Source: Hirudo medicinalis (Eukaryota; Annelida; Clitellata; Hirudinida; Hirudinidae). Taken from it: a stretch of 64,000 nucleotides of DNA. The notes under the pieces were generated by a model. It was not told the DNA's origin, made no database searches, and saw only the letters and a list, made by a program, of their open reading frames with translations. This document shows, one piece after another, positions 4,401 to 59,318 of the stretch; the stretch's first letter is position 1, and each line of letters opens with the position of its first letter. Position numbers and translations under genes: made by a program. The DNA lies in assembly GCA_011800805.1 (NCBI GenBank), contig MPNW01000008.1:123406-187405 (forward strand), in the 5' to 3' direction.

Positions 4401-5261
4401 AGCCTGCACGAACTCAGCCCTTCGAGATCTAATCCCCAAAGAAGTTTTTTTCCTACAGAAGTTTCCTAGTTACTTCCAATTAACTCTGTGTTGTTGAAAG
4501 ATTGGCTCATAGTTTATTTGTGGGTTTATTTTCGTTTGACAGTCCGGCATATGGAATTCCAAAGCTGTTGAAGAAGGTTGGACTGCAACTGAATGACATA
4601 GATGTTTTTGAGCTACATGAAGCTTTTGCAGTAAGTTATTACTATTCATGTAACAACTTCTTTGAATGGACCATTATGCTGCAAAATGATTCCTTATTTA
4701 TCTAAAGGGTCAGGTCCTGGCCAATCTGAAGGCACTTGATTCTGATTTTTTTGCTAAAAACTACATGAATCTACCACAGAAGGTGAGGCTGATTCATTTT
4801 GTTAACATCACTTCCTTTCTTGATGTCGTTGAATTGCGGCTTTGGCGAAACTGATATCTAAAACCACTGTACGGAGCTCAGGCTTTAGCCTAACAGACTA
4901 TTGTGACTTTTATCTAACTCATTACTCAATGGGCCTACAGTTTGGAGCTCCACCAATGGAAAAGATCAACGCATGGGGTGGCTCACTCTCTATCGGCCAT
5001 CCCTTTGGTGCTACAGGTGTAAGACTTGTCACCACAGCAGCAAACAGACTTATAAAAGAGGACAAGCAATTTGGTCTTGTAGCAGCCTGTGCCGCTGGAG
5101 GACTGGTTGGCCAATTAACTTTCACATTTTCATTTGCTAACAACTTATTGTTTGCCACAATACTTATTTACTTTTTCTATCTTAAGATACAGCATTTCAT
5201 GAAGCTCAAATTCTTTTTCCAGGGTCATGCAATGATTGTTGAGAGGTATCCTTTGGCATGA
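1497..5261 (+). CDS. HADHB: Trifunctional enzyme subunit beta (3-ketoacyl-CoA thiolase), mitochondrial
   Basis: Last step of mitochondrial long-chain fatty acid beta-oxidation: thiolysis of 3-ketoacyl-CoA, in complex with HADHA on the inner membrane. Exons: 1497-1560, 2227-2362, 2469-2500, 2618-2685, 2863-2950, 3119-3303, 3389-3481, 3563-3775, 4070-4197, 4543-4630, 4708-4782, 4941-5105, 5223-5261; these sum to 458 codons (457 aa; human is about 474). The N-terminus [16 protein letters not shown] is a plausible import presequence. Thiolase landmarks are all present: VDGVRTPF, acylated Cys in [32 protein letters not shown] and the second catalytic Cys in CAAGGLGHAM. Exon 1 joins directly to 2227 in phase 1; a possible extra exon at 1797-1864 would break the frame. 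The gene is convergent with DDX41 (350 bp between stops). Confidence 0.95.
2041..2066. repeat. (ATT)n microsatellite in HADHB intron 1
   Basis: Perfect ATT repeats of about eight units. Confidence 0.9.
2766..2825 (+). repeat. Diverged duplicate of part of HADHB exon 8, inside intron 4
   Basis: About 60 bp in the intron before exon 5 (2686-2862) resembles codons of the exon 3563-3775. CCTTCCTCCCTTGAA and CAGCTTTCATCAAAAAC, then ATGGCACCA, occur in the same order as at about 3690-3750. The copy lacks an internal stretch and has no matching splice sites, so it looks like a dead partial exon duplication. Confidence 0.7.
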
Positions 5262-5610: not shown

Positions 5611-11176
<5,566 letters not shown>

Positions 11177-15300: not shown

Positions 15301-17411
15301 AAGGAATTTGACATAAAATTTCTGTTATAAAAACTGATATTGACCAACCATTACCTTAGAATTTGCAGGCAGAATATGAGAAGATAGAATCAAGATTTGA
15401 TGTTGAGAAGTCGGCAAATTGCGATCATCAGAAGTTGATTGGTCAGCTGAGCTCTGAACTTTGTCAAGCAAAGATAAAATCTTCAGAGGATACAGAAGAA
15501 ATTAACAAACTCAGGGGAGAATTGCAGAGAAGGGAAAGAATGGAACAAATCCTAGAGGAAGCAAAGATGCAAACTGAGAAAGAGATCCAGGCAGGAAAGA
15601 TACAGCAGGATGTCATCTGTAGGGAGAAAATTTTGTTGGAATCCAGAGTGATGCATTTGGAAGGCCAATTGAAACAAGCTCATGAGGAGCACCACTTGCA
15701 GTTGATGAAATTAGAGCAAGAAATCAAAATGAAAACAGATGAGCTGGATAGTGTCAGGAAGGATGCCCAACATTCCCAGTTGATGAACCTTGAGATAGCT
15801 GACTATGAAAGGAGTGTGAAGTCATTGAATTTAGCTTTAGAGGAAAAAGAAGTCAAGCTAAAGTTATCCCAAGAAGAATTACAACATGCAAAACAACAGA
15901 AACATGCCACTGAGAAACTACTGGAGGCATCTGAGAATCAATTCAGGCAATCAGAAGAGCAATGTTCAAAGTTGAAACAAATGCTTCTCAAGTCTAAGAA
16001 AGATCTTACAGATGTCAGAAAGCAGGAAAGTGATAGGGCTAACAGTGAATCACAACTTAGAACACAAAATGAGATGCTTGTGCAACTCACAGAGGAGCAA
16101 AAGCTAAAAATAGCTGAACTAAATTCAGAAAGTCGTCAGCTTTTTGAGAGGCTTGCCGTGACCTTGGAAAGTCACCAAAGGAGTACCTCATTGATGGAAG
16201 CAAAACTGTACAATCAACAAAGAGAGATGGATTTAAACAAACTGGCATTAGAAAATTTGCAGATTGATTATGACAGCTACAAGGCAAGGGTTCACAGTGT
16301 TCTTAAGGTTAAGAAGAGCAATGATTTTGACAAATCAGCTTTTGAAGATGAAAGAAAGGAAAAAGAAGTCTTAGAGAAGACTAACAAACAATTGAAAGCA
16401 GAAATTTTAGATTTAAGTGGTCAGCTTTCTTGTGCAATGGCAGAAAATGAGCAACTGAGGGATGAACACGATAAGATGATGAAGAAGCTTGCTTTAATGA
16501 AGGATGACTACGATGCTGCAGAAGCTGCATGGAAGGAAAAGCTTGAAAAACATACTTTGAATCATTCTGATGAGTTGGCAAGACAATCAGACACCATTCA
16601 AGAGCTAATGAAGCAGAATGAGATTGTTGCTCAAACCTTCAAAGAACAGCATGCTCGTGTCGTTGAATCATTGAGAAACCAACTTGACAGGGCACAATCT
16701 GAAGTTGACAATTGTCGCACAAGGTTACAGAATTTGAACCCTTCTCCAGCATCTATTTCAAAATCACAGTCACCCAGCAGCACTATAAATACAACTCTCA
16801 TCCCATTGGATGGAACACCAGAAGAAAGGCAGGCTGCTGAGGGCTCAGAATACAGTGATGATGTTCATCATTCCGTGAAAATGATAGGTTGTTCGCCTGG
16901 TCCTCTTCAGAGTTCTGTATATAAATCCACCTTTATTCCACTTGAAGTACTCCTTTCTGGCCATTCTAACGTCCCCTCAGAATCAGATGAACATTTTTCT
17001 AAAGATGAGAAGGAAGATAAGTCTTTGAGTTCATCACTGCAAGCTTCTCAGAGACAGGGTGTTCATCTAAGGCAGCTACTTAATGAGAGTGAGGCCACAG
17101 TTTTACGCCTTACAGAGCAGGCGAGCATTCTCAAGGCTGAGATACGAAGATTGGAGAGAAATCAAGAGAGACAGTCATCTGTGTCTAACATGGAATATCT
17201 CAAGAACATAGTATACAAATTCATGACATTGAAGAATGCTGAAGAGAGGCTTCAACTTGTACCTGTTATGCAAACAATGCTCAAATTTTCACCTGAGGAA
17301 AAAGAAAGAATATGCTCTATAGCTAATGGTGATGAATCCAATAGGATAGAACCACCGGGCTGGGGATCATACATGAAATGGTTTGATGTAATGACACCAC
17401 CAAAACTATGA
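12398..17411 (+). CDS. GCC2: GRIP and coiled-coil domain protein 2 (golgin GCC185)
   Basis: Long coiled-coil tether of the trans-Golgi network, recruited by Arl/Rab GTPases through a C-terminal GRIP domain. Exons: 12398-12439, 12529-12613, 12748-12800, 13014-13097, 13349-14872, 14979-15068, 15369-17411; sum 1307 codons (1306 aa; human about 1684). The N-terminal block KLESLTREELTKFIKKQM matches the conserved GCC2 start. Heptad-rich sequence fills the middle, and SQLMNLEIADYE is a GCC2 signature. A Ser/Pro-rich break (about residues 1085-1165) precedes SEIRRLERNQER and the GRIP domain, about residues 1235-1290 (MEYLKNIVYKF, TMLKFSPEE, GWGSYMKWF). The two long exons are typical. It is convergent with the CIAO2A-like gene (530 bp between stops). 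Poly(A) signals (aataaa) lie near 17704 and 17814. Confidence 0.93.
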
Positions 17412-21104: not shown

Positions 21105-24100
21105 ATGATTCTGACCCTGACATTGGACATGTTTGTGTTAATTCTGTTAAGGAACACTTTAGGAAGCCCCGATTCAAAGAGATTGTACGATGACCTGCTG
21201 AAGAAGAGCGGTTACAACAAACTGATTCGACCAGTAGGAAATAACTCGGACACACTGACCGTGAAGATCGGTTTGAGATTATCTCAGATCATTGATGTAG
21301 TTAGTTTTCAAAGAGTTTCGTTTCGCATCTAACCTGCCCGAATTCTGAAATCATAATTAGGTTAACCTCTTACAGGATGAAAAAAACCAGATCATGACAA
21401 CAAATGTGTGGCTAGACCAGGTTTGTGTTAAATGATAGCATTGCCTACAATGATAAACTTTAGTGGAACAAATTGATTGGTTATGTTACTATAAAATAAT
21501 GACAAGGTACTCATAATCAATTTATTACACCTATAGTTTCGCTAATTTCATAATTTATTAGCAATGGTTCGATTATCGTCTTACTTGGCATGCAGAAGAA
21601 TATGGAGGAGCAGACAGGCTATTTGTTCCCTCAGATGAAATATGGCTGCCCGACATAGTACTCTATAACAGGTCGTATATACATATAAGCACCCTCTAAT
21701 TAGCAATAAAAATAATCCGAAAGGTTTACTAATGCTTAACTTTCCAAAACCTTAACCAAATTCCAAAGTATTTTGTTTGATCGTAGTCAATTATTCATAA
21801 AATGATTTCTTTAAAAAGTTGCTCAATTACCATTTAAGCATAATGTTTTTGTTACCCTGTTATTTTATTGCAGCGCTGACGGAAATTTTACAGTTAAATT
21901 GATGACAAAGGCCACCATTTACTCCAATGGCCTCGTTATGTGGAAACCGCCGGCTGTCTACAAGAGCCTGTGTTTTATTGATGTTGAATTTTTCCCTTTC
22001 GACGAACAGTCTTGCACTCTCAAAATAGGTTCGTGGACCTACGACGGTTATTCGGTTGATATACGGCACAAGGATCTTCCTCTTTCCAACAACCCTTTAG
22101 ACGTGGTCGATCAAGGCATCGACTTGAGCGATTATTGCAAGAGTACAGAATGGGACCTACTGGCAGTCCCCGCTAAGAAATTTGTCAAATATTATCCGTG
22201 CTGCGAAGAGCCCTATCCGGATATTAAGTTTAATATCACTATAAGGTAATGACACTTACTTACATAACAACAGTTTAGAATGTAAGTTAAGATATTTAAC
22301 TTTGTCTTTAAGATATAAAGATTATTAATTTATTTTATTTCTGACAAATTTAATGGTCTCTAGCACAAATTTTCATCTGTAAATGAAATTAAACAATGAA
22401 CAACAAATTAAAGCGATAAAGAGACAACTTCGAGGTGTAGCATATAATCATTCATTTAATGACAAGACGTTTGCTAAGATTATTAATTTAGCAATTATTC
22501 TTAATATTACACAATTATCGTAATATAACAGCTATTATACTTATAGTTAATTTTACAATAATTAACACCGACCAACCGGGTTTCATAGCGCCTTCTTCAA
22601 GAGAAGCTTCCCCTAGTTTTGAAGTTTTATTGTAACTTGCCTCTCTAATCACATCGGATTCATTATCATTTCAATGAAAAGTATAACCAATGGTATCCTA
22701 GAGTAGCCATTAAATTATTTTATAATAATAATTATTATTATTAATTGCGAATGTTGCTTGAGTTATAAGAGCCAAAGTCCATCATCGTATGAATTATTAT
22801 GTTCTCAGGAGAAAAACATTGTTCTACACCGTCAATCTGATCCTGCCATGTGTTGCCATATGTTCTGTGACCTTGCTGGTTTTCTATATTCCAGCCAGTT
22901 CGGGCGAAAAGATAACCATGGGAATAACCATCCTCAACTCTCTCAATATCTTCCTTCTTCTTGTTGCTGAAATAAATCCGCCCACTTCACTGGCCACGCC
23001 CCTCATCGGAAAATACCTTTTGTTCACAATGGTGTTGGTGACGTGCTCCATCATCGTGACGGTTTTTGTGTTGAATATCCACTTCCGTTCGCCATCGACG
23101 CACGTTATGTCTCCATGGATACGGGAATTATTCTTAAATGTCCTTCCGAGGTTGCTCCTCATGAGGCAGGTTGGTTGAGATGATTCTGTCTTGATGACGT
23201 TATTTTTACTTTTACATTAAACTTTAAACTTTAAAATTGAAACCTCATGTATCTGGTCTCCAAAGTTACAAACTTGTCGATGATTTCATAAAAAAAAAAT
23301 CAATATCTTTCACTATATCGCTTTCAATTGATAATATTTTAAGGTCAAAAGGCATTGACCGTCCCAGTTTAGATCGCAAGCAATTCTTTTTTTTAAGAGA
23401 CATTTTATATAACAAAATACCTTAAATCCAGAAAACAAACTAAAATAAAATAACTTAAGGGTCAGCATTTAGGAAGCGCATGCTTCAGTTTTTTATAAGT
23501 TTGAGTTTTGATTAGCATGATTCAGAAAAAAAATCATGAGATATAATTGCAGGCATGGGTGAGAGGATGGGGAGATATTCTAAGATAAGTCTAATTAATC
23601 CACGAATTTCTAAATATCAAATACAAATAATGACTCCGGCTTCGTCGAGATCAATTACAAGCTCACTTCGGATAACTCATTTTAATAAGTAGTCAATGTT
23701 TAAATAACACCAGTAGTCGAAAACAGAATCTTGGCTTGAACCGCTTCAAACATATAATATAACATAACATAACATTTATTTCTGGAGGTTTAAGTAGACT
23801 AATGTCTGTGTGATAAACCACTCCTATTTAATTCAATATCCAAATTTCGATGGTTCTTTTTTAAATATTATAATAGGTCCACCGAATCTGAATATATATT
23901 GTCTCCTCAACAAGCTTGTTCCACAGATTAATTTCTCTCGTGAAGTAAATATTCTTCAGAGTACCCGTTGCTTTCCTACATAGCTTACATTCATCCTTGT
24001 TGTGAAACTGCTTTTGGTGGCCAAAGAAATGTTTAGGCGGTAAATTTTCTCTTCCTGTAATTATCTTGAAAGTTTCTATGAGATCACCTCTGCTTCTCCT

Positions 24101-24530
24101 TATTTCTAGATTTGTTAATTTGCACCTTCTTAATCTCTCCTCACAACTAAAATTTCTTAGACCCCTAATCATCCTTGTTGCTCTTCTCTGCATCCTTTCC
24201 AATGTTTCAATGTCCTTCTTTAAGAGGGAGTTCCATACTTGTATGCAGTACTTCAAATGGGGTCTCACAAATGCCTTATACAACTTTAATGTGATGCTTT
24301 CTGACCACTGTCGTCTTTATCATACGTAATGCCCTCTCTAATTTGCTCTCTTACCAGCTTCTGCTCATTGTTTCGTTGATTTTCAGTCAGTTATCAGAAG
24401 ACCCATCTTGCGTCAGTTGAAGACCCACCCGTTAACATTAAACCGAGAACCAAGGCGTCTCTGACGCTATGCTTATGGCGCCATATTATTATTATTATTA
24501 TTGTTGTTGTTGTTGTTGTCGTCGTCGTCG

Positions 24531-24576
<46 letters not shown>

Positions 24577-26105
24577 TATTATTTTTATTATTATTATTAT
24601 TTTCCACTCTTGTGCACAATCACTCCTACATCTCTTTCTTGTTCTGACAGGTTTAACACTTGTCGCCCAAATTCATATTCTACCATCCTATTTCTACTCT
24701 GAGCACCAAGTTCGCATTAAATAGCATCTGCCATTCCTGTGACCACTTATATAATTTATTTAAATCTGCCCGAAATTCATCGACATTCATTTTTTACTAA
24801 CTTTCCTGTTGCTTTTTGTGTCATCTGCGAATTTAGATATTTTAGATGATATTCCACCATCAAGATCATTAATGCAGACACAACAAATTATTTGCTACTT
24901 CTTTGATGGCTCTGTTCAGAATACACCGAAGCAGTGTGCCTCTTGCTTTGCGTGAGTCCAGCTTCCCTTTATCGATCGCTTGTCATCGTCTTCTTGGACC
25001 TTAATCTTCTATGCACTGAATTTCCATGTTGGTATGATTTAAGCGCTTTTTAAGAGTTTATCAAATATATGCTCTTCTATGTGCAAGCGCTTTCCAAAGG
25101 AAAGCTGAGATGGCGTACCTGCTTTCCTTCATTGGCTGATCTTTTTTGTGTATTATTTTATGGGGTTGTGCTGATCAAAATAAGTTTGACATAAACTAAC
25201 TCCTTTTTAATCACTATGAACAAATTTTAAGTTAAGGCAAGCTAGCCATTTAAGTGAACAATTAATGTGGAATGTTAATATTTTAAGTTAGCTATTTGTA
25301 AACATTCCCGTTAAGCAGGTTCAGACGAAGATATTAAAAGTCAATGTGAGGACGGAATTCGGAAGCGAATATAGAGATTCATTTCATCTAAGCGCCGGAG
25401 AAAACATTTTCAACCAATCCAGGCGTCAAACCGAATCTCACTCCAAAATCGAAAAAGTCGATAGAGGCATCGGTTTTGAACGCATAACTAGAGAATTGTC
25501 TCGTAAGTTTCTTTTCAATAAATGCTCATTTATTAATATTATTCATTATATAATAAATATTCCTATCAAGTTGAAATTGCTCCGAATATATGTTATATTT
25601 ATCGAAGCTTTCCAAGATTTCTATTTCCAGCGAGTAGATTTGCCACCATAGTAACTCCATCAAGACCTGGCCTATTCGCTTCACCGCAGCAAGATATTGG
25701 AAATAACTCTTTCCAATCGCTTCCGTCGTTTGGTATTTCCTGCCAGCAACCACTCGTGGAAAATGCTATGCTCGGCGTCAATTTCATTTCAGACCACGTA
25801 AAGCAACAGGATGATTTTCAACGGGTAAACATTTGCGGTACATAATGTGGAAATTCTAGGGTCTTTTGCTGTATTTGTTAATTGAATGTTAATGCATTAT
25901 TTTAAAATTCACTATCATTGAAAACTATAACAGGACTGCATTTCTACAGATAAAACACGACTGGCAATATGTTGCAATGGTTCTTGATAGACTTTTCCTG
26001 TGGGTTTTCACAGCTGCATGTCTGGTCGGAACATTCGGCATAATAGTTCAAGCTCCAACTCTCTACGACTACAGAACTCCCCTATTTACGTCAAGATGCA
26101 CTTAA
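21105..26105 (+). CDS. Nicotinic acetylcholine receptor alpha subunit, alpha7-like, with polar pore substitutions
   Basis: Pentameric ligand-gated cation channel subunit of the plasma membrane. Exons: 21105-21299, 21376-21420, 21562-21671, 21874-22245, 22809-23169, 25319-25502, 25631-25824, 25951-26105; about 538 aa. The 45- and 110-bp exons match alpha7 gene structure. Signal peptide ([15 protein letters not shown]), loop D VWLDQQW, loop [10 protein letters not shown], Cys-loop C150-C164 (13 residues between), loop B GSWTYDG and loop [12 protein letters not shown] with the vicinal Cys226-Cys227 of an alpha subunit. M1-M3 lie in exon 5; the intracellular loop spans exons 6-7; M4 is in exon 8. 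M2 reads [19 protein letters not shown]: Glu at -1' and 20' predict cation selectivity, but the conserved Leu at 9' is Asn (residue 284) and 12' is Asn (287). Intron 5 holds a LINE copy. Confidence 0.93.
23860..24960 (-). mobile_element. Degraded LINE (CR1-like reverse transcriptase) in nAChR intron 5
   Basis: On the minus strand, broken frames give [20 protein letters not shown] (RT active-site FADD) near 24800-24870, [11 protein letters not shown] near 24740, and then an intact 140-codon frame 24283-23861 with [45 protein letters not shown] and [12 protein letters not shown]. These are the thumb and C-terminal blocks of a CR1/L2-type ORF2. A compound triplet tract interrupts it at 24485-24600. 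It lies antisense to the host gene. Confidence 0.8.
24485..24600. repeat. Compound trinucleotide microsatellite
   Basis: Successive runs of (ATT/TTA)n, (TTG)n, (TCG)n, (TCA)n and again (TTA)n. Each block differs by one base from the next, as expected of a microsatellite evolving by point mutation and slippage. It generates homopolymer frames that are not genes. Confidence 0.9.
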
Positions 26106-26435
26106 ATTTGGAAGTCAAATTATGAATCGAATCTTAACGTTCGTCAATGGTTTCAATCGTGATTTTACGAATAAAATATTAACTTATTTTGAAGACAAAA
26201 TAAAACTCGTCACCTATACTACAAAAATGTATTTTACATATTAATTAAAGATGTTCTTAGTTGAAATGTGAAAAGGTTGGTATGCTAGATATAAATAGGT
26301 ATAATAACACATTTTATTTTATGGAGCGCTGCAAATTAGATATGTTTTAAAAAGATATGTTTCGACTGACCGTATGACACATTTGGCGGTATCTCGAAAT
26401 TAGTTCTGCCGGCATATAATTGGGTTTTGTTTTGA
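26106..26435. other. Spacer between nAChR and STN1
   Basis: AT-rich 330 bp, with the receptor 3' UTR and the STN1 promoter expected here. An aataaa hexamer lies near 26172 and another (aataaaa) near 26196. Nothing else is recognised. Confidence 0.5.
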
Positions 26436-30906: not shown

Positions 30907-31959
30907 TCAATCGTTTGGGGCATTGTATTTGACTCGCTCACTTGGCCAAAGCCTGACAACGAATCCGCCATAGACAACTTCTTCATTACCCTTGAGTCTG
31001 ATTTCGGGCGGAAGAGCAAATGTCGCTGCACATGCGAAAATAGTGTCCGTCCCGTGTGGATAGACATACTTTATGGGTAGCCCAGTTTCTTCATCAATTT
31101 CTCCTGGTTTGCAATCAGACTTTTCAGAAGCCTTGTTGAAATCAGTGGATAAATCTGGGTTTATGCCATACTTTCTCAAAAGATCATCAAAGGAAATTTC
31201 TTTGGGATCAGTTCTTCCATGAACATTTTCAGCTGTAGACGTTTCGCCAAGCTCAAAAGAAAGTTTTGTCAAGAGAGGATGCGATTGTTTTCCTGTTTCT
31301 GTGGTGGATAACACTGCAGATTCCTTTGTGGCAAAGTTGATTAAATACAGACCTTGCTTCTTTTTGGATTTCACCACATGGAGAATTTCACCAAATTTAG
31401 AAAAAATTTCTTTTATCTCTTCTTCGCTATAAGCAGGCTCAATGCCTTTCTTGTTGGTCTTCCAAGAAACTTTGATGCTGTATCCATCACTGCCACTAGG
31501 TACAGAACAAAATCTCTTTGCTTGCTTTTCCCTTTCCAATTCCTCTTCACGCAATTTCCGCCTTCCTTCCTCACGCATCCATTGAATCAGAGATTCTTTC
31601 TCTCTTCTCTGTCGTTCTTCTTGCTCTTTTTTTTCCAGATATTCCTTGTTCTTCTGCTCGCTTTTTTTCTTGAAATGTTGGGTCTTGGCATCCATCTCAC
31701 GTAGCCTCTTCTCGTTCCTCTCCATGGCCCTTAGTTTTTGGTCATACTCTCCTTTTTTGGTTATGTTGGTAAGGGTCTCACAAACTTTTTGCAGTTTTTG
31801 AAAATTCTCGGCGGCATCCTTTTTACCTGGATTTTTGTCCGGATGAAGTTTGAGAGCCAATTTCTTGTAAGCTTTTTTTACTTCTGCCTCAGTGGCATAT
31901 TTTTGAAGGCCTAGGTAGCCGTAAAGTTCTATGCCAGAAATGTTAATGGATGATGTCAT
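30907..31959 (-). CDS. DNAJC17: DnaJ homologue subfamily C member 17-like, intronless
   Basis: Nuclear J-domain protein linked to splicing in human and yeast (Cwf23). One uninterrupted exon of 350 aa, starting at the ATG at 31959. The J domain occupies about residues 10-75 with HPD at 39-41 (KLHPDKNPGK). A Lys/Glu-rich helix follows (about 80-165), then an RRM-like domain (about 175-245: SIKVSWKTNKKG, EIFSKFGEILHVV, GLYLINFATKESA). This order is diagnostic. The last 80-90 residues (DEETGLPIKYVYP, FACAATFALPPE, VRLWPSERVKYN) are not part of the vertebrate protein as I know it. Being the only intronless multi-domain gene here, it may be a retrocopy that became fixed. Confidence 0.88.
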   Translation of the reverse strand: MTSSINISGIELYGYLGLQKYATEAEVKKAYKKLALKLHPDKNPGKKDAAENFQKLQKVCETLTNITKKGEYDQKLRAMERNEKRLREMDAKTQHFKKKSEQKNKEYLEKKEQEERQRREKESLIQWMREEGRRKLREEELEREKQAKRFCSVPSGSDGYSIKVSWKTNKKGIEPAYSEEEIKEIFSKFGEILHVVKSKKKQGLYLINFATKESAVLSTTETGKQSHPLLTKLSFELGETSTAENVHGRTDPKEISFDDLLRKYGINPDLSTDFNKASEKSDCKPGEIDEETGLPIKYVYPHGTDTIFACAATFALPPEIRLKGNEEVVYGGFVVRLWPSERVKYNAPND

Positions 31960-33877
31960 TTTTAACAAATTTCCAGACTGCTTATTAAAATAGATCACCA
32001 AGATCGTTTTTTAAAAATTCTTTCGGGTACTAAATTTGGTCCCTATTGTAAATACGCCCTGCACATTTCTAGTCTCAAAAGATACTGAAGATGAAATTTT
32101 ATTTAATTAGTTTGTATTATATTTAATTTGTATTAATTTTACTATCTAAATAACTCAGCGCTGCCCTGCATAATTAAAAATAATCTAGGAAATTATTAAA
32201 TTCAAGCAATAAAAAAAATTAAACCCGATAGTTTAATATTTACCGCGCCGGATTTACCCAGTTGGAGGCCCACAAGATCCTACACCAATCCTGTTGCCCC
32301 TCTGACAAGCAAAAAAAGGTTTCTTTGGTTGATGGAGGCCACCTGTGCAGTGGCACATCCGGACCCGGCGAACCATGCCTAAATCCCGCATATCCACTTG
32401 CACGCACTTGCTACAGTACATTATCATCATGACCTATATCGGATAACGATAATAACGATTCAGAGTTTAATTAGAGTGGCGTTTGTTCAAACAGAACTTC
32501 AAGACCACTTAATGTAGAGGGAAGAGGAAAGTTTTTAGGGCGGAGTAAAACTCAACTGGATCGGTGTTTGTAATCGAAGGGGGGAGTCTATTCCAGATCT
32601 GCGAGCCAACAACGTCTATAGACTTGCCATTCGGTATCGCATGTCGGGCAGATGATTTGAAGATGGAGCCCCTGGTTGCTGATCTGAGCCCGCACCAGGA
32701 ATATGTGCGGTGCGGGTGAAAGTCAGGTATGACGGTGCTTGACTTAGGAGAGACTTGAAAACGAGTGAAAAGATTTTGTACTCAATTATTTGGCGAAAAT
32801 GTGGAGATCATGAAGAAGAGGAGTGATCACGTTTTCTTTTGCTGTTTATGGTTGTAGCGGCAGCGTTGATGACACGCTAAAGATGCTCGAGGCGGCAGGT
32901 AGGTAAACCGACCAGAGTTGAATTGGCTAACGTCCGAATAATCAAGTTAATGTATAAATAGGTTGCACAGATACATATTTGACGTACCCAAAATTCATTT
33001 ATAAGATTTACTTGTAACTAAATTTCTCGTTTAGCTAATGGTAGCAAATAGACGGAAGCGCGTTAGGTAATTGGCGGTTCCAAGCTTATTTACTCAGCGC
33101 AACACAATTTTCTTGAGTTCTTATTGACCATAAATAATATGAACAATGGCACTGGTTTAACTACCAATATTAATCCACAAAACTTTGGTCATTCATAGTT
33201 CATAAACTATGAATCCCATACTTTCGTTGATATCAAATATAGAAATAAATAAATCAAAGAAATCATAGTGAAAACGAGGTTAGAATAAAAATATCGAAAC
33301 TCAATGTTTGTGCCAAGGCCAAAATTTTAGGACATAACTATTCCTGTCATGGTCAAAACTTAATAATGTGCATTTGTGGTTCCAAGGTACTTTCTACTTA
33401 GAGCAACTTTTAGCACCTAAATTGATTTTAACTCAAAGCATATAAACCTATCCTGCAAAATGCTGGATAGTCTTTCAAAAACAGTCAAGATATGAGTTAA
33501 GTCAAATATTAATAATAAATGAGCACGAACTACCAATATGAGATTTTCTGGTGCTGCATCCCATTTGAGAGAGCTTAATTAGGTTGTCCATGTGTTGGTG
33601 CGGTGGGAGCAAAAAATAGCAGCAAGATAAAGCATGAAATACTTCTGAATAACACCTTCTGAAAGAATTCTAAGTGAATGAGATACAAAAACATAAACGT
33701 ACCTAGAATTGCTTTTTTGCCAATTTTTTCTAAGATGCCAAATTTACGAAGTTCACAAAGTTATGCATTTGAAAAGGATTTTAAAGGATTTGAAACTGGG
33801 AAAGTGGTGCACTGACATGATATGCATAACAATATTCAGTATTGTAACCCACAAAATAAACAAGCACCAGGAAATGA
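31960..33877. other. Spacer between DNAJC17-like and COLGALT genes
   Basis: About 1.9 kb. The part at 32240-32900 is less AT-rich and carries a LINE tail; the rest is AT-rich without supported exons. Confidence 0.5.
32510..32760 (-). mobile_element. LINE ORF2 C-terminal fragment
   Basis: Minus-strand translation gives YSWCGLRSATRGSIFKSSA, then GSQIWNRLPPSITNTDPVE, FYSALKTFLF and a stop near 32513. The block xIWNxLPxxI...FxxxLKxxL is the conserved C-terminus of many LINE reverse-transcriptase ORFs. It appears to be a different subfamily from the copies at 11.7, 24 and 41.9 kb, whose tails read differently. Confidence 0.65.
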
Positions 33878-53027: not shown

Positions 53028-55790
53028 TCAAGAGAACCTGTCGCACGGCGAAAACGACATCGTCATGTACTCGCCAGGTGTCGTCATCGGGGAAGCGAGG
53101 TTAGAGATTGTGGTCGTGCTGAAGTTGTTCCGAGAGGTGACGGACGAGACCGAAGAACTGGAGCAGGACGAAGCCGACGAAAGCACTCCGAACGAGCAGT
53201 CGCAAGGAACCGCAGGAGCGGAGGTCCTATCGAACGACATTTCCATGTAGCGTTCGTTACTCCCGTCGACGCTTTTGGCGGGTGCAGAGAGCAAACAAAT
53301 CGCTCCCGTCAAAACGCCACCGTCGCCTGCGGCCGCAGCGTCGACGTCGGCATTCGACGCCCGGGTCGAGGTCGGAATCCGAGCGGCTTTTCCCAGGCTC
53401 ATGTCAAGGTAATCGGTGAAGTGCTGAGGATTCAGTTGGATCCTCTTAAAACCCTCGGTCATGTCTAAATACGGCTCGTCCTCGAAGACTTTCTTATCGT
53501 CTGATCCTAGCTGCCGGAGTTCAGAGTCGGCCACGAATCCGTGCATCTTCATGTAGCCATTCTCGAGAGCTTCGCGACAGCAACGATTACGAACGGCCAG
53601 ATTTTTCTGGTCGCCGGTGAGAGCGCGCGGCCTGGGTTGACAGCAGGGAACGGGTCTCGAGGGCATCATGGATCCGTCGATCGTGGGCAGCCTCTCCCTC
53701 TTCTGGGAGTGATCGTGGTCGCTGGAGTCGAGGACCACGTGATGGAGAAGGTGCTGATAGTTGGTGAGCGGGTTGGACCTGAATATCTTCCCTCCCACGG
53801 GCTGCTAAAGGAAGAATGAAACGTACGAATGAAGAAATTGAGACTCAATCGGACTCATCTTCTTGAATCTAATTTAAACTGGATTTGCAAATTTCAACGT
53901 TGTTATCACCGGCCTAGCAATCATTATGTTATTCAATCACGTCGTCGTCGAAACAACCGATCAGAAATTTGACTAAATCCCATTTCGCATCAAATGTCTT
54001 TCAGATAGGCCAAGGTCCTAAGTACCACAGCACGAGTATAAATAAGTAAGACTAGCTGTTTGTACAAACTATTCTTCTTGCATCATGCTCTGAAGGTCAA
54101 GAATTCAAATCCATTTACAAATCTCTTAGTAGTTTATGACATTCTACTGCTATTAGTTTAAAGCAGCAATTTATCTGGTTGACAGATGATGTTGGGCATT
54201 TTTGCCACTACACCTTTGTTAATCCATAGTAGCTCACCTTTGGGGTCATGACCTTGTTCTTAATGTGGCAACTGGCTCTTTTACAAAGTCCTGCGGCCAA
54301 ATGTTTACTCTTGCCGGGTTTCTCAAAATCGAGAGGAGCGTAGAAGACCTTTCGCGAGCTGCTGGAGTTGAGAGCCTCGCAGTAGAAACAGCCCTCCTTA
54401 TATGGAGGAGGATCTTGCAGAGCTGTTACACAGAACGGCATTAATAATTAAATTCAAGTATTATAATCCACTCACGCTATTGGATCAAATATCCGGCCAA
54501 TGCAGGCCCGATCCCAAAAGTATTAGCACCATTATACCTAAATCGACTGCCTCCGAATGCATTGCAACCCCTTGAAGATCCTCGTTCGTCTCCTGACCTT
54601 CGCCCTCATTTTTGAGATGAGGAGCACTGGAGCATCTTTCAGAGTCCTTGGATGCTTGACTGAAGTGATGTTGATGATGCTGGACATTCTTCAAATATTC
54701 GGCCTTATTGCCCACTGAGGAAGTCCTCAGTAGGTCTGCCAGATCGAGATCAGTCTGTTTGAATCCATCCATGAAGAAGTAGGGGGCATGGAGGCCCATG
54801 GCTTCCTCTTTGGCTGAAGTGCTCTGGAGATCAATCTTGACTGAAAGAATGGGAGAATAAATGTAAGATTATTATAATCTTCATTGTTACACACAATTCC
54901 TTCACGAGCAAGCCCTTTAAATATGAATGGACAAATTACTTTAAGCATTACATAAATGCATAGATCAATATCCAAATAATGTTAATGAAAAACTAATACA
55001 AAAAAAATTTGCCCCAAGAATAACTTAATCCAATCCACAACTTTATTTTCAAACAACAATGAACATGTCACCAAAAATAACAAGAACGAATATGCTACCA
55101 AAAATAATATTACTTATTCTAAACTGATAAACTGATGTCTTGCATCAACCACATTGCACAAATGGTAATCAAAATGAATACTCTCAATAATGACGTTGCC
55201 AATCGTATTTTTATTTCTTTGTTTAACTAGTTCCTGGTGATTTGTCGATTTGTTAGCGGGGTCAATCCGGCAACAGAAGCATGCGCGCACGCACTTCCGC
55301 AAGCTCGGTCGTCACTTAGCAAAGCTAGTGGAAGTCGAAGAGAACTACCATCGCAATGTCATCCTGCTTTCTTGAATGAAACAACATCTGCTAACCTGGA
55401 AAGAGTATGGAAGACAACGAGGATTTGTTGACAGAGGATGGGAGACTGCTTCCAGAGGATCTCAGGGAACTCACGGAACTTGAACTCGTGGTTCGACCTA
55501 GAGGTCGCATCGTCGGTAATATCGGAGTTTTACTCGAATATATTGAAAGTATTAATTAAAAATATTAATACATTATGATAATAATCTATCAGAGCCACTT
55601 TGACATTTTCAAACTATTCTTTGGATCAACTTTATTAATTAGATCAATTAGGCCTATTAATTATATTAAAGAATACCAACCTCCAGGCATGTTGGGGAAA
55701 ACAGAGTCACTGCAAGCATCAGCTACCACAGTGGCAGTAGATGAAGCTAAAAAGTGAGGGAGTTAATTATTAAGATGATGATTATTATTA

Positions 55791-56541: not shown

Positions 56542-59318
56542 GAGAGGAAGATAGTAAATTGGATGATATCAATTAGACAAAGAATTGGGTCGCAAACAAA
56601 CTCACAAACAAACTCACAAACAACACGTTGCAGGCAGCCTCCAGCCTGGGTACATTATGTAGGCCGTGAATGGTGTTTAGAAAAATAAGTGAGAGTGAGA
56701 TGATAAGGAGGAGGAGAGGACAACAATGGTTGAAGATATAATAACAACTGATCACAGTACTTCATAAAATTTGTTACTTCACTAATAACTGTTTGCAACA
56801 ATAGAACGTACGACGCGATAAAAAAAAATCCGTTTAAAATCAACTAGTCGTGTTTTGAGTGCAATGCGTTACTGCTCGCATTCTAAATAACCATTTAACA
56901 TTTATAAACATTGAATAACCATAATGCTGTCAAAGCACACCTTCCCAAACAAGTACATTAATGCAACCAGTTCAGTCAAGATCACCCAACATCAAAGGAG
57001 GCAAGGAACTGACAGACCAACCCATTAGGGTGAATTGGTGTTTTGGTGAACAAAAGCCATAATTAAGGGTGGCATGAGTCATTGAAGAAAACATCAAGGA
57101 ATAATCATGAGGAAGTATACAACGAGCAAACAAGAAGATACCTGAAGACGTGCATGTGTATGTTGCTGGCTATGATGGGGTCGTCCACCTCGATCCACAG
57201 CTGACCTTCGCCTATGGAGGAGCTCGTGCCCAGTTCCAAGAAGAACAAGTCCTTTGTGTCGCCCAACTTCCGAATGCTTTCGAGCTAGAGGAACGGACGA
57301 CGGGCGGATAGATAAATTGATTTATTTATTTATTAATTAATTAATTAGAACAAAAAGTTGAAAGAGATGAAATGGCTAGTTAAATCTAGCAACTTGTCGT
57401 GCCAGATTTGCCGACTTCTAAAAGGAATCAGGGTTAGTTTGGTATTAGGGATAATATTTTACATAACACGATAATATTTTATATAACACGATAATATTTT
57501 ATATAACACGATAATATTTTATATAACACGATAATATTTTACACCTGACAACCAAAGGTTAGCTGAAATAACTACTGATTGTATCAAATGATATTTATGA
57601 ACATTCTTGATTGTTTGCAAATTGATCTTAGATTTGTAACACATATGATCGATTAAATTCGTCCAACTGTGCATCAAATCAGGTGATTTCTCGAGCAAAC
57701 CATCAACTCCACGCTCAAACACCACAATTTCACTGTCCTTAACATTCTCTGATCCAATTGAGCACAAATCATGTACAACATCGTCACAACCGTGATTGAC
57801 ATCGGTTCTGCCATGACAACAACCACAACAGCAACAAATCAACTCCTACTCACTGCAAACTCAAATCCCTGTGAACAGTTTCCTTCTCCAATGAGGTTAA
57901 TGCTTTTGTGGCTCAGGCAGAATCTGTACTTGCCTGGTTTGATCTTCCTGCAACTACCGTTGCTCTTCTTCATCACACGAACATCCCAACTGAACTCTGA
58001 TTGGTGAGCAGATAAAACCACTTATTTACAATTACTAATTGAAACGTGGAGAAAATGTGAATCATTAAATACTGCTGACAAAAACTTCTATAGGTAACTA
58101 AGCATGACATCCAAACAACTCCACCTACCAAAGTTGTCCTGATCTGTGAGTGTCTTGTCTTCCTGGCTCTTGTTCTTGAGCTGCAGGAGATTGCTCAACC
58201 ACTCGTTTTTTTCGGCCTCGCTGGAGCAGCCTATCCTGAAGGCATCCTTTTTGGTGTAGATATGGATGACTTCGGAACCGCCCGAAGAGAGGGACGGACC
58301 CCTGCCGTTGGTGGAACCGTCGGTGATGTTGAGACAGTCTCTCAAGAGGATGGAACGCCTGGGTTTTCCGGGAGCGGCCAGGAATTTGGCCTCATCCTGA
58401 AAGTACTCCAGCCTGGCTGGATTGCTCTTATCCACTTCATCTCTAAGAACAAAGAATTTTTTCTTCTTGGTCTGGAATGGATCAATTGCAATCAATTTAT
58501 AAATTTTAATTAATTTGTGATTCTCCAGCTGACGAAAATGCATGCATCCCAGTCAACGGTCGACCTACCGATTCACTTTACAAGAAAATTACGACTCGTA
58601 ATTTAACGTCAGAACAAACAATGCAGCTGTCGCACGAGCTTAAGTGTTACAACTCGAGTGGAACGATTTTTCAAAACGAAAGGATAAAACAATAAGTCAC
58701 AATAGTTTGTAAACAAGCTTAAAATGGTTAGATAAAGTGTGAAGGCGATATTGGCTTTCGTGTCAAGAATATGTTGCGAGGTTTCATTGGGTTGTTTGTT
58801 GAAACTTTACTGCTATTTCAAGAGCTTGAAATGTGGAATCTGAAGACATCTCAATGTTTAATGTTGATGAAATGTGGAATCTGAAGATATCTAAATGTTT
58901 AATGTTGATGAAACGGCCACTGCTATTATTACTATTATATTCAAAATGAATAATGATGCTTTTTTCAATCCAAAAATCAGCTTTACCAGCGCCCAACAAA
59001 CGTACCAAAACAAATTGTCACAAACTGAACAATTCCCCAACAGATTGGATCAACGATGGACCGAATTAAAGAAGAGTTCACGGCTTTCTTAATTAATCAT
59101 CGCGTTGACATCGAGATCAGATAGAGTGAGACTTTCAAAGAATTTAAATGCTCAGGAGTATAAAGTTCACAGGACATAAGACAAAACAACTCTTAAGTTA
59201 TTGCAGCAGAAACAACAACAACATTAACATGCTAACAGCAAAATAATTATTAACAGAAGTCATTTTATTCTTATATCAAGCATAAATAGCCATCTTGGCA
59301 TTCAGAACAACTTGTCCC

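Follow-up and report, generated by a model that had tools for sequence, protein, structure and literature searches.

The leucine ring at position 9' of the second membrane helix (M2) is a textbook gate element of nicotinic acetylcholine receptors, and it is known mostly from laboratory mutants. The M2 positions that face the pore are 2', 6', 9', 13', 16'/17' and 20'; position 12' is next to 9', one helical turn above it. Modelling of alpha7 identified the hydrophobic rings as 9', 13' and 16' (PMC4514475, accessible part). The alpha7 L9'T mutant showed greater acetylcholine potency and less desensitisation, with spontaneous openings reported, and a substitution at 22' of alpha7 altered the action of some allosteric drugs (both from the accessible part of PMC4548482). 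In muscle receptors, mutations at 13' were found to lead to spontaneous openings and slow channels (PMC5029940, accessible part). In the leech, the accessible part of the central nervous system transcriptome paper lists 14 nicotinic contigs, of which nAChR6 was the top-expressed in the section 'Receptor RNA-seq counts' (PMC6054404).

The nAChR6 gene of Hirudo medicinalis was located in the window, which here means the whole stretch of DNA that was analysed (64,000 nucleotides, C8:123406-187405, where C8 is the contig carrying it). The coding span at 21105..26106 (+), stop codon included, consists of eight exons encoding 538 amino acids: 21105-21299, 21376-21420, 21562-21671, 21874-22245, 22809-23169, 25319-25502, 25631-25824 and 25950-26106. 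All seven introns are bounded by GT after the exon and AG before the next, and the exon 1 donor was picked from its resemblance to other receptors. Exon 4 (21874..22245) encodes the Cys-loop, the loop B Trp and the loop C vicinal Cys of the ligand-binding domain, and the open frame 21815-22249 in this region matched Pfam Neur_chan_LBD at 119.6 bits. Exon 5 (22809..23169) encodes the helices M1 to M3 and the first part of the M3-M4 loop, and the open frame 22762-23178 matched Neur_chan_memb at 145.3 bits. The last exon (25950..26106) encodes M4 and the C-terminal tail; positions 196-232 of PF02932 were matched in this region at C8:149337-149447 (window 25932-26042). Within intron 5, a LINE-like open frame of 151 amino acids without a Pfam match was observed on the opposite strand (23861-24316, -), which we take to resemble the terminal part of a LINE reverse transcriptase.

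The predicted product was identical to 'Putative nicotinic acetylcholine receptor 6' of Hirudo verbana (P0001) at 536 of 538 residues, the differences being confined to residues 9 and 411. Pfam coverage of P0001 was nearly complete, with scores of 255 bits for PF02931 and 217.1 bits for PF02932 (positions 2-216 of 216 and 1-232 of 233, respectively). P0001 was equated with accession MG973304 by matching name and number in the accessible part of PMC6054404.

The Cys-loop begins at residue 150 and contains two Cys with 13 residues between them. The vicinal Cys 226-227 of loop C lie in YYPCCEEPY, which begins at residue 223, and the aromatic residues of the acetylcholine site were found in the motifs of loops A-D (W in NVWLD, Y in DIVLYN and W in GSWTYDG). 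The inner end of M2 is Gly-Glu-Lys with Glu at -1', which together with Glu 20' gives the signature of cation selectivity. The Cys-loop, vicinal Cys, aromatic box and both Glu claimed in the first-pass annotation of this DNA were thus all present. Judged from its sequence, the gene encodes an alpha-type nicotinic subunit predicted to be acetylcholine-gated and cation-conducting.

The M2 helix reads K0-ITMGITIL-N9-SL-N12-IFLLLVA-E20-I-N22. The usual nicotinic gate has a hydrophobic residue (Leu, Ile or Val) at 9', and nAChR6 has Asn there (residue 284, codon AAC, 22936..22938, +). The residue at 12' is also Asn (residue 287, codon AAT, 22945..22947, +), and both codons were re-read as the first-pass annotation had reported them, in the exon that has AG before it and GT after it. 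A further Asn, at 22' on the outer end of M2 (22975..22977, +), had been overlooked.

Compared with described receptors, the same three Asn occur in both nAChR6 (P0001) and nAChR4 (P0008) of H. verbana. The alpha1-like subunits of lophotrochozoans and arthropods (Owenia P0012, Lineus P0021 and Octopus P0034) are 55-60% identical to the leech subunit over near full length and share its domains and vicinal Cys type. In contrast, their M2 has the motif ILLSLTVF, and Leu, Thr and Ile stand at 9', 12' and 22', where the leech has Asn. The pore series of Owenia P0012 is T-S-L-V-L/L-E and that of the leech is T-T-N-I-L/L-E. The insect alpha4-like subunits (Tribolium alpha4, P0011) are likewise altered at the two positions, with Ile 9' and His 12' seen in 22 of the 252 listed homologues. 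They differ from the Asn-9' type, however, in that 9' is still hydrophobic and in that they form a separate branch. Among solved structures, the human alpha4beta2 receptor 8ssz (8ssz_A) was the best match both by sequence (445.8 bits) and by the fold of the AlphaFold model, and it has Leu 9' and Thr 12' in the alignments shown, where the leech has Asn at both. A search of solved structures with the M2-M3 piece matched 73 chains, with Leu at 9' in 5/5 of the alignments displayed. The alpha7 laboratory mutant L247T (L9'T) resembles the leech subunit in its polar 9', but the residue is Thr and 12' and 22' are unaltered.

Sequencing, assembly or editing error, or an alternative exon restoring Leu 9', could in principle account for the Asn pair. 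Nothing was found in favour of this explanation, whose probability we consider close to negligible. The deposited H. verbana sequence is an independent record and has Asn, not Leu, at 9' and again Asn at 12', and two leech paralogues and 54 further listed homologues besides P0001, P0008 among them, agree with it. A-to-I editing is unable to convert an Asn codon to a Leu codon under the genetic code. No second M1-M3 exon that might replace 22809-23169 was found in introns 4, 5 and 6 or the plus-strand flanks by motif scan, nor by a Pfam search of the genome. The reading of the Asn pair as an artefact or as the mark of a dying gene was rejected, being contradicted by a subfamily in which the polar mid-pore is conserved.

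The two paralogues carry the M2 motif ILNSLN at C392:206158-206862 and C494:17284-18195; the genome searches covered 133 Mb, and the locus numbers that they give are lower bounds. The C494 protein was identical to H. verbana nAChR4 (P0008) over the compared region. Across the 23 M2 codons, 14 silent and 0 replacement differences were found between the window gene and the C392 gene, compared to 9 silent and 2 replacement differences between the window gene and C494, and 14 silent and 2 replacement differences between C392 and C494. In 48 genomic M2 sequences of cation and anion types, 9' was Leu in 38, Asn in 3, Val in 2 and Met in 1; the other 4 (2 Ile and 2 Phe) were doubtful and were taken as intron read-through or uncertain matches.

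To place these genes in the wider family, 252 homologues were collected from three protein searches (the best 120 matches of each), a sample that is biased to Asn-type likeness and whose shares differ from those of the whole family. Position 9' was Leu in 146, Asn in 56, Ile in 26 and Val in 24 of them, the three hydrophobic residues together making up 196/252. The first-pass annotation had described Leu 9' as kept almost throughout the Cys-loop family; Leu was indeed the commonest residue, but Ile or Val occupied 9' in 50/252 listed homologues. The loop C vicinal Cys was found in all 56 listed Asn-9' proteins (46 by pattern and 10 by reading). Species names were attached to 6/56, namely two proteins of Hirudo verbana, two of Helobdella robusta and one each of Paralvinella palmiformis and Ridgeia piscesae, all annelids, and the other 50 carried no species name. 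Lineages were checked for Hirudo, Ridgeia, Paralvinella and Owenia. Four listed proteins of Owenia fusiformis and one of Dimorphilus had Leu 9' with Thr 12'. No Capitella-named protein was among the matches listed, an absence that is weak evidence. On the question of whether Asn 9' is fixed in relatives, it was present throughout a whole subfamily. Taken from these sequences, Asn 9'/12' is a trait of a conserved subfamily, so far from named annelids only, and is accompanied by Asn 22'.

Asn 22' was found in 56/56 and Asn 12' in 55/56 of the listed Asn-9' proteins. The single exception at 12' was P0238, which has Leu 12'; strict co-occurrence of Asn 9' and Asn 12', which had held in 36/36 proteins of a smaller listed set, was rejected on that account. 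The constancy of the companion residues, like the strong conservation of M2 among the leech paralogues, fits a compensated gate, in which Asn 9' and Asn 12' would hydrogen-bond along or between adjacent M2 helices and form a closed polar ring, with near-normal gating and altered selectivity, conductance or drug block. Full compensation is the main rival to altered gating, and we give it an appreciable probability that stays clearly below even. P0238, which lacks Asn 12', counts against it, as does the phylogeny.

The trees were built without M2 plus two further columns (0' to 24'), keeping the trait itself from grouping the sequences. The Asn-9' proteins formed one branch in both a 103-row tree (38/38, SH-aLRT 99) and a 96-row tree (58/58, SH-aLRT 98), both being quick searches without bootstrap in which several rows were less than half filled. 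A single branch points to one origin, and therefore the pairing of Asn 9' with Asn 12' represents one event and not repeated covariation. P0152 was the deepest Asn-9' protein in both trees. P0156 has L9', T12' and N22', and P0153 has V9', T12' and N22'; these two were sister to the Asn-9' branch with weak support (82) in the 96-row tree and merely a pair within a wider group in the 103-row tree. This placement hints that Asn 22' arose before Asn 9', and the two proteins may be stepping stones towards the Asn-9' type.

The reading that we favour, at somewhat better than an even chance, is that nAChR6 binds acetylcholine as a functional alpha-type subunit of a cation-selective receptor, and belongs to an Asn-9' subfamily, so far from named annelids only, with a shortened hydrophobic gate. 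The pore-facing series would be T2', T6', N9', I13', L16'/L17' and E20', so that the hydrophobic girdle would be without its lower ring and the gate would be left on 13'/16'/17'. The closed state would then be destabilised relative to the usual one, giving high acetylcholine sensitivity and slow desensitisation. The companion Asn at 12' and 22' may moderate this destabilisation, a ring of Asn 9'-Asn 12' hydrogen bonds is possible, and the size of the effect would be expected to rise with the number of Asn-9' subunits per pentamer. The AlphaFold model of the single subunit was moderate (mean pLDDT 68, pTM 0.53) and placed M2 in one helix at residues 272-296; it is silent on the closed pore because it holds only one subunit and is of moderate quality.

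Against the altered-gate reading, the mutant evidence concerns Thr at 9', not Asn, and comes without companion changes at 12' and 22'. In addition, P0238 indicates that Asn 12' is not strictly required, and long conservation fits a fully compensated polar gate equally. The conservation of the subfamily, together with the reported abundance of nAChR6, speaks against a pore that simply leaks or is broken. The physiology proposed in the first-pass annotation (altered gating, spontaneous opening or a partner role) is inferred from mutants of other receptors, and its interpretation as a whole is partly supported.

Since the leech has three alpha subunits with Asn 9', a pure Asn-9' receptor is possible. 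Alternatively, Asn-9' subunits might serve chiefly in pentamers shared with Leu-9' subunits, tuning sensitivity and being inactive alone; the analysis gave no sign of an obligate partner role. Many Leu-9' subunits of the genome, including those on C248 and C198, which are without vicinal Cys, are potential partners for such an arrangement. We nevertheless regard it as improbable, since the vicinal Cys in every listed Asn-9' protein and the three such leech genes allow pure pentamers. A bolder proposal, which is tentative and rather doubtful, is that a good part of annelid fast cholinergic signalling runs on all-Asn-9' alpha pentamers (in Hirudo, built from nAChR6, nAChR4 and the product of the C392 gene) with a polar mid-pore, closed via an Asn 9'-Asn 12' ring and/or a gate at 13'-17'. 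If this is true, a stable closed nicotinic channel is possible without the 9' hydrophobic girdle. With a natural, conserved Asn-9' subunit in an animal whose neurons are identified and easily recorded, the idea of a hydrophobic gate can be tested directly on a channel shaped by evolution. The questions are whether the gate is shifted, whether it is compensated, or whether the animal responds to tonic acetylcholine through a receptor that is sensitised and slow to desensitise.

The subunit sequences are already public, and we found no paper remarking on the Asn 9'/12' polar pore, in a literature whose coverage was thin for subscription journals. The accessible part of PMC6054404 holds no comment on the pore residues of nAChR6, and no remark on Asn 9'/12' was found with the terms searched in the accessible parts of two evolutionary surveys (PMC6896357 and PMC4795631) or in that of PMC10338036, a paper on Alvinella receptors that drew on sequences from Hirudo and Helobdella. 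A literature search for the string ILNSLN gave a single, unrelated match, and one for long-lasting nicotinic responses or desensitisation in leech neurons gave no usable result.

Other unusual M2 residues were observed in the leech genome. The anion-type signature Pro-Ala-Lys (PPESPAK, PPETPAK), not Gly-Glu-Lys, was present in nicotinic-like subunits at C515:93222-93815 (-), C515:89200-89508 (-) and C494:62937-63347 (-) (loci L002, L003, L007, L064 and L069). These presumably resemble the molluscan acetylcholine-gated chloride channels, and their sequences make them candidates for the leech inhibitory acetylcholine response. Arg 12' beside Leu 9', with Gln for Glu at -1', was found at C14:117356-117685 (-), C209:126016-126468 (+) and C228:5606-5968 (-), a second unusual charge close to the gate. 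Lys 20' (SKLLPP, SKILPP) was found at C201:6118-7605 (+), C41:428510-429670 (-) and C857:33537-34007 (+); Lys 20' also occurs in the human beta2 chain (SKIVPP), and these leech genes probably encode ordinary non-alpha subunits.

Elsewhere in the window, Pfam matches identified a thiolase C-terminal piece (4833-5261, +), pieces of a DEAD-box helicase (6148-6624 and 7848-8222, -), a golgin with GRIP and Rab_bind domains (15360-17411, +) and a DnaJ plus RRM protein (30907-32010, -). An open frame at 53028-53804 (-) contains several YxxM motifs and is without a Pfam match, and a PH domain (27.5 bits) was found upstream of it on the same strand at 58088-58552 (-); together the two are like an insulin receptor substrate, as we take them to be.
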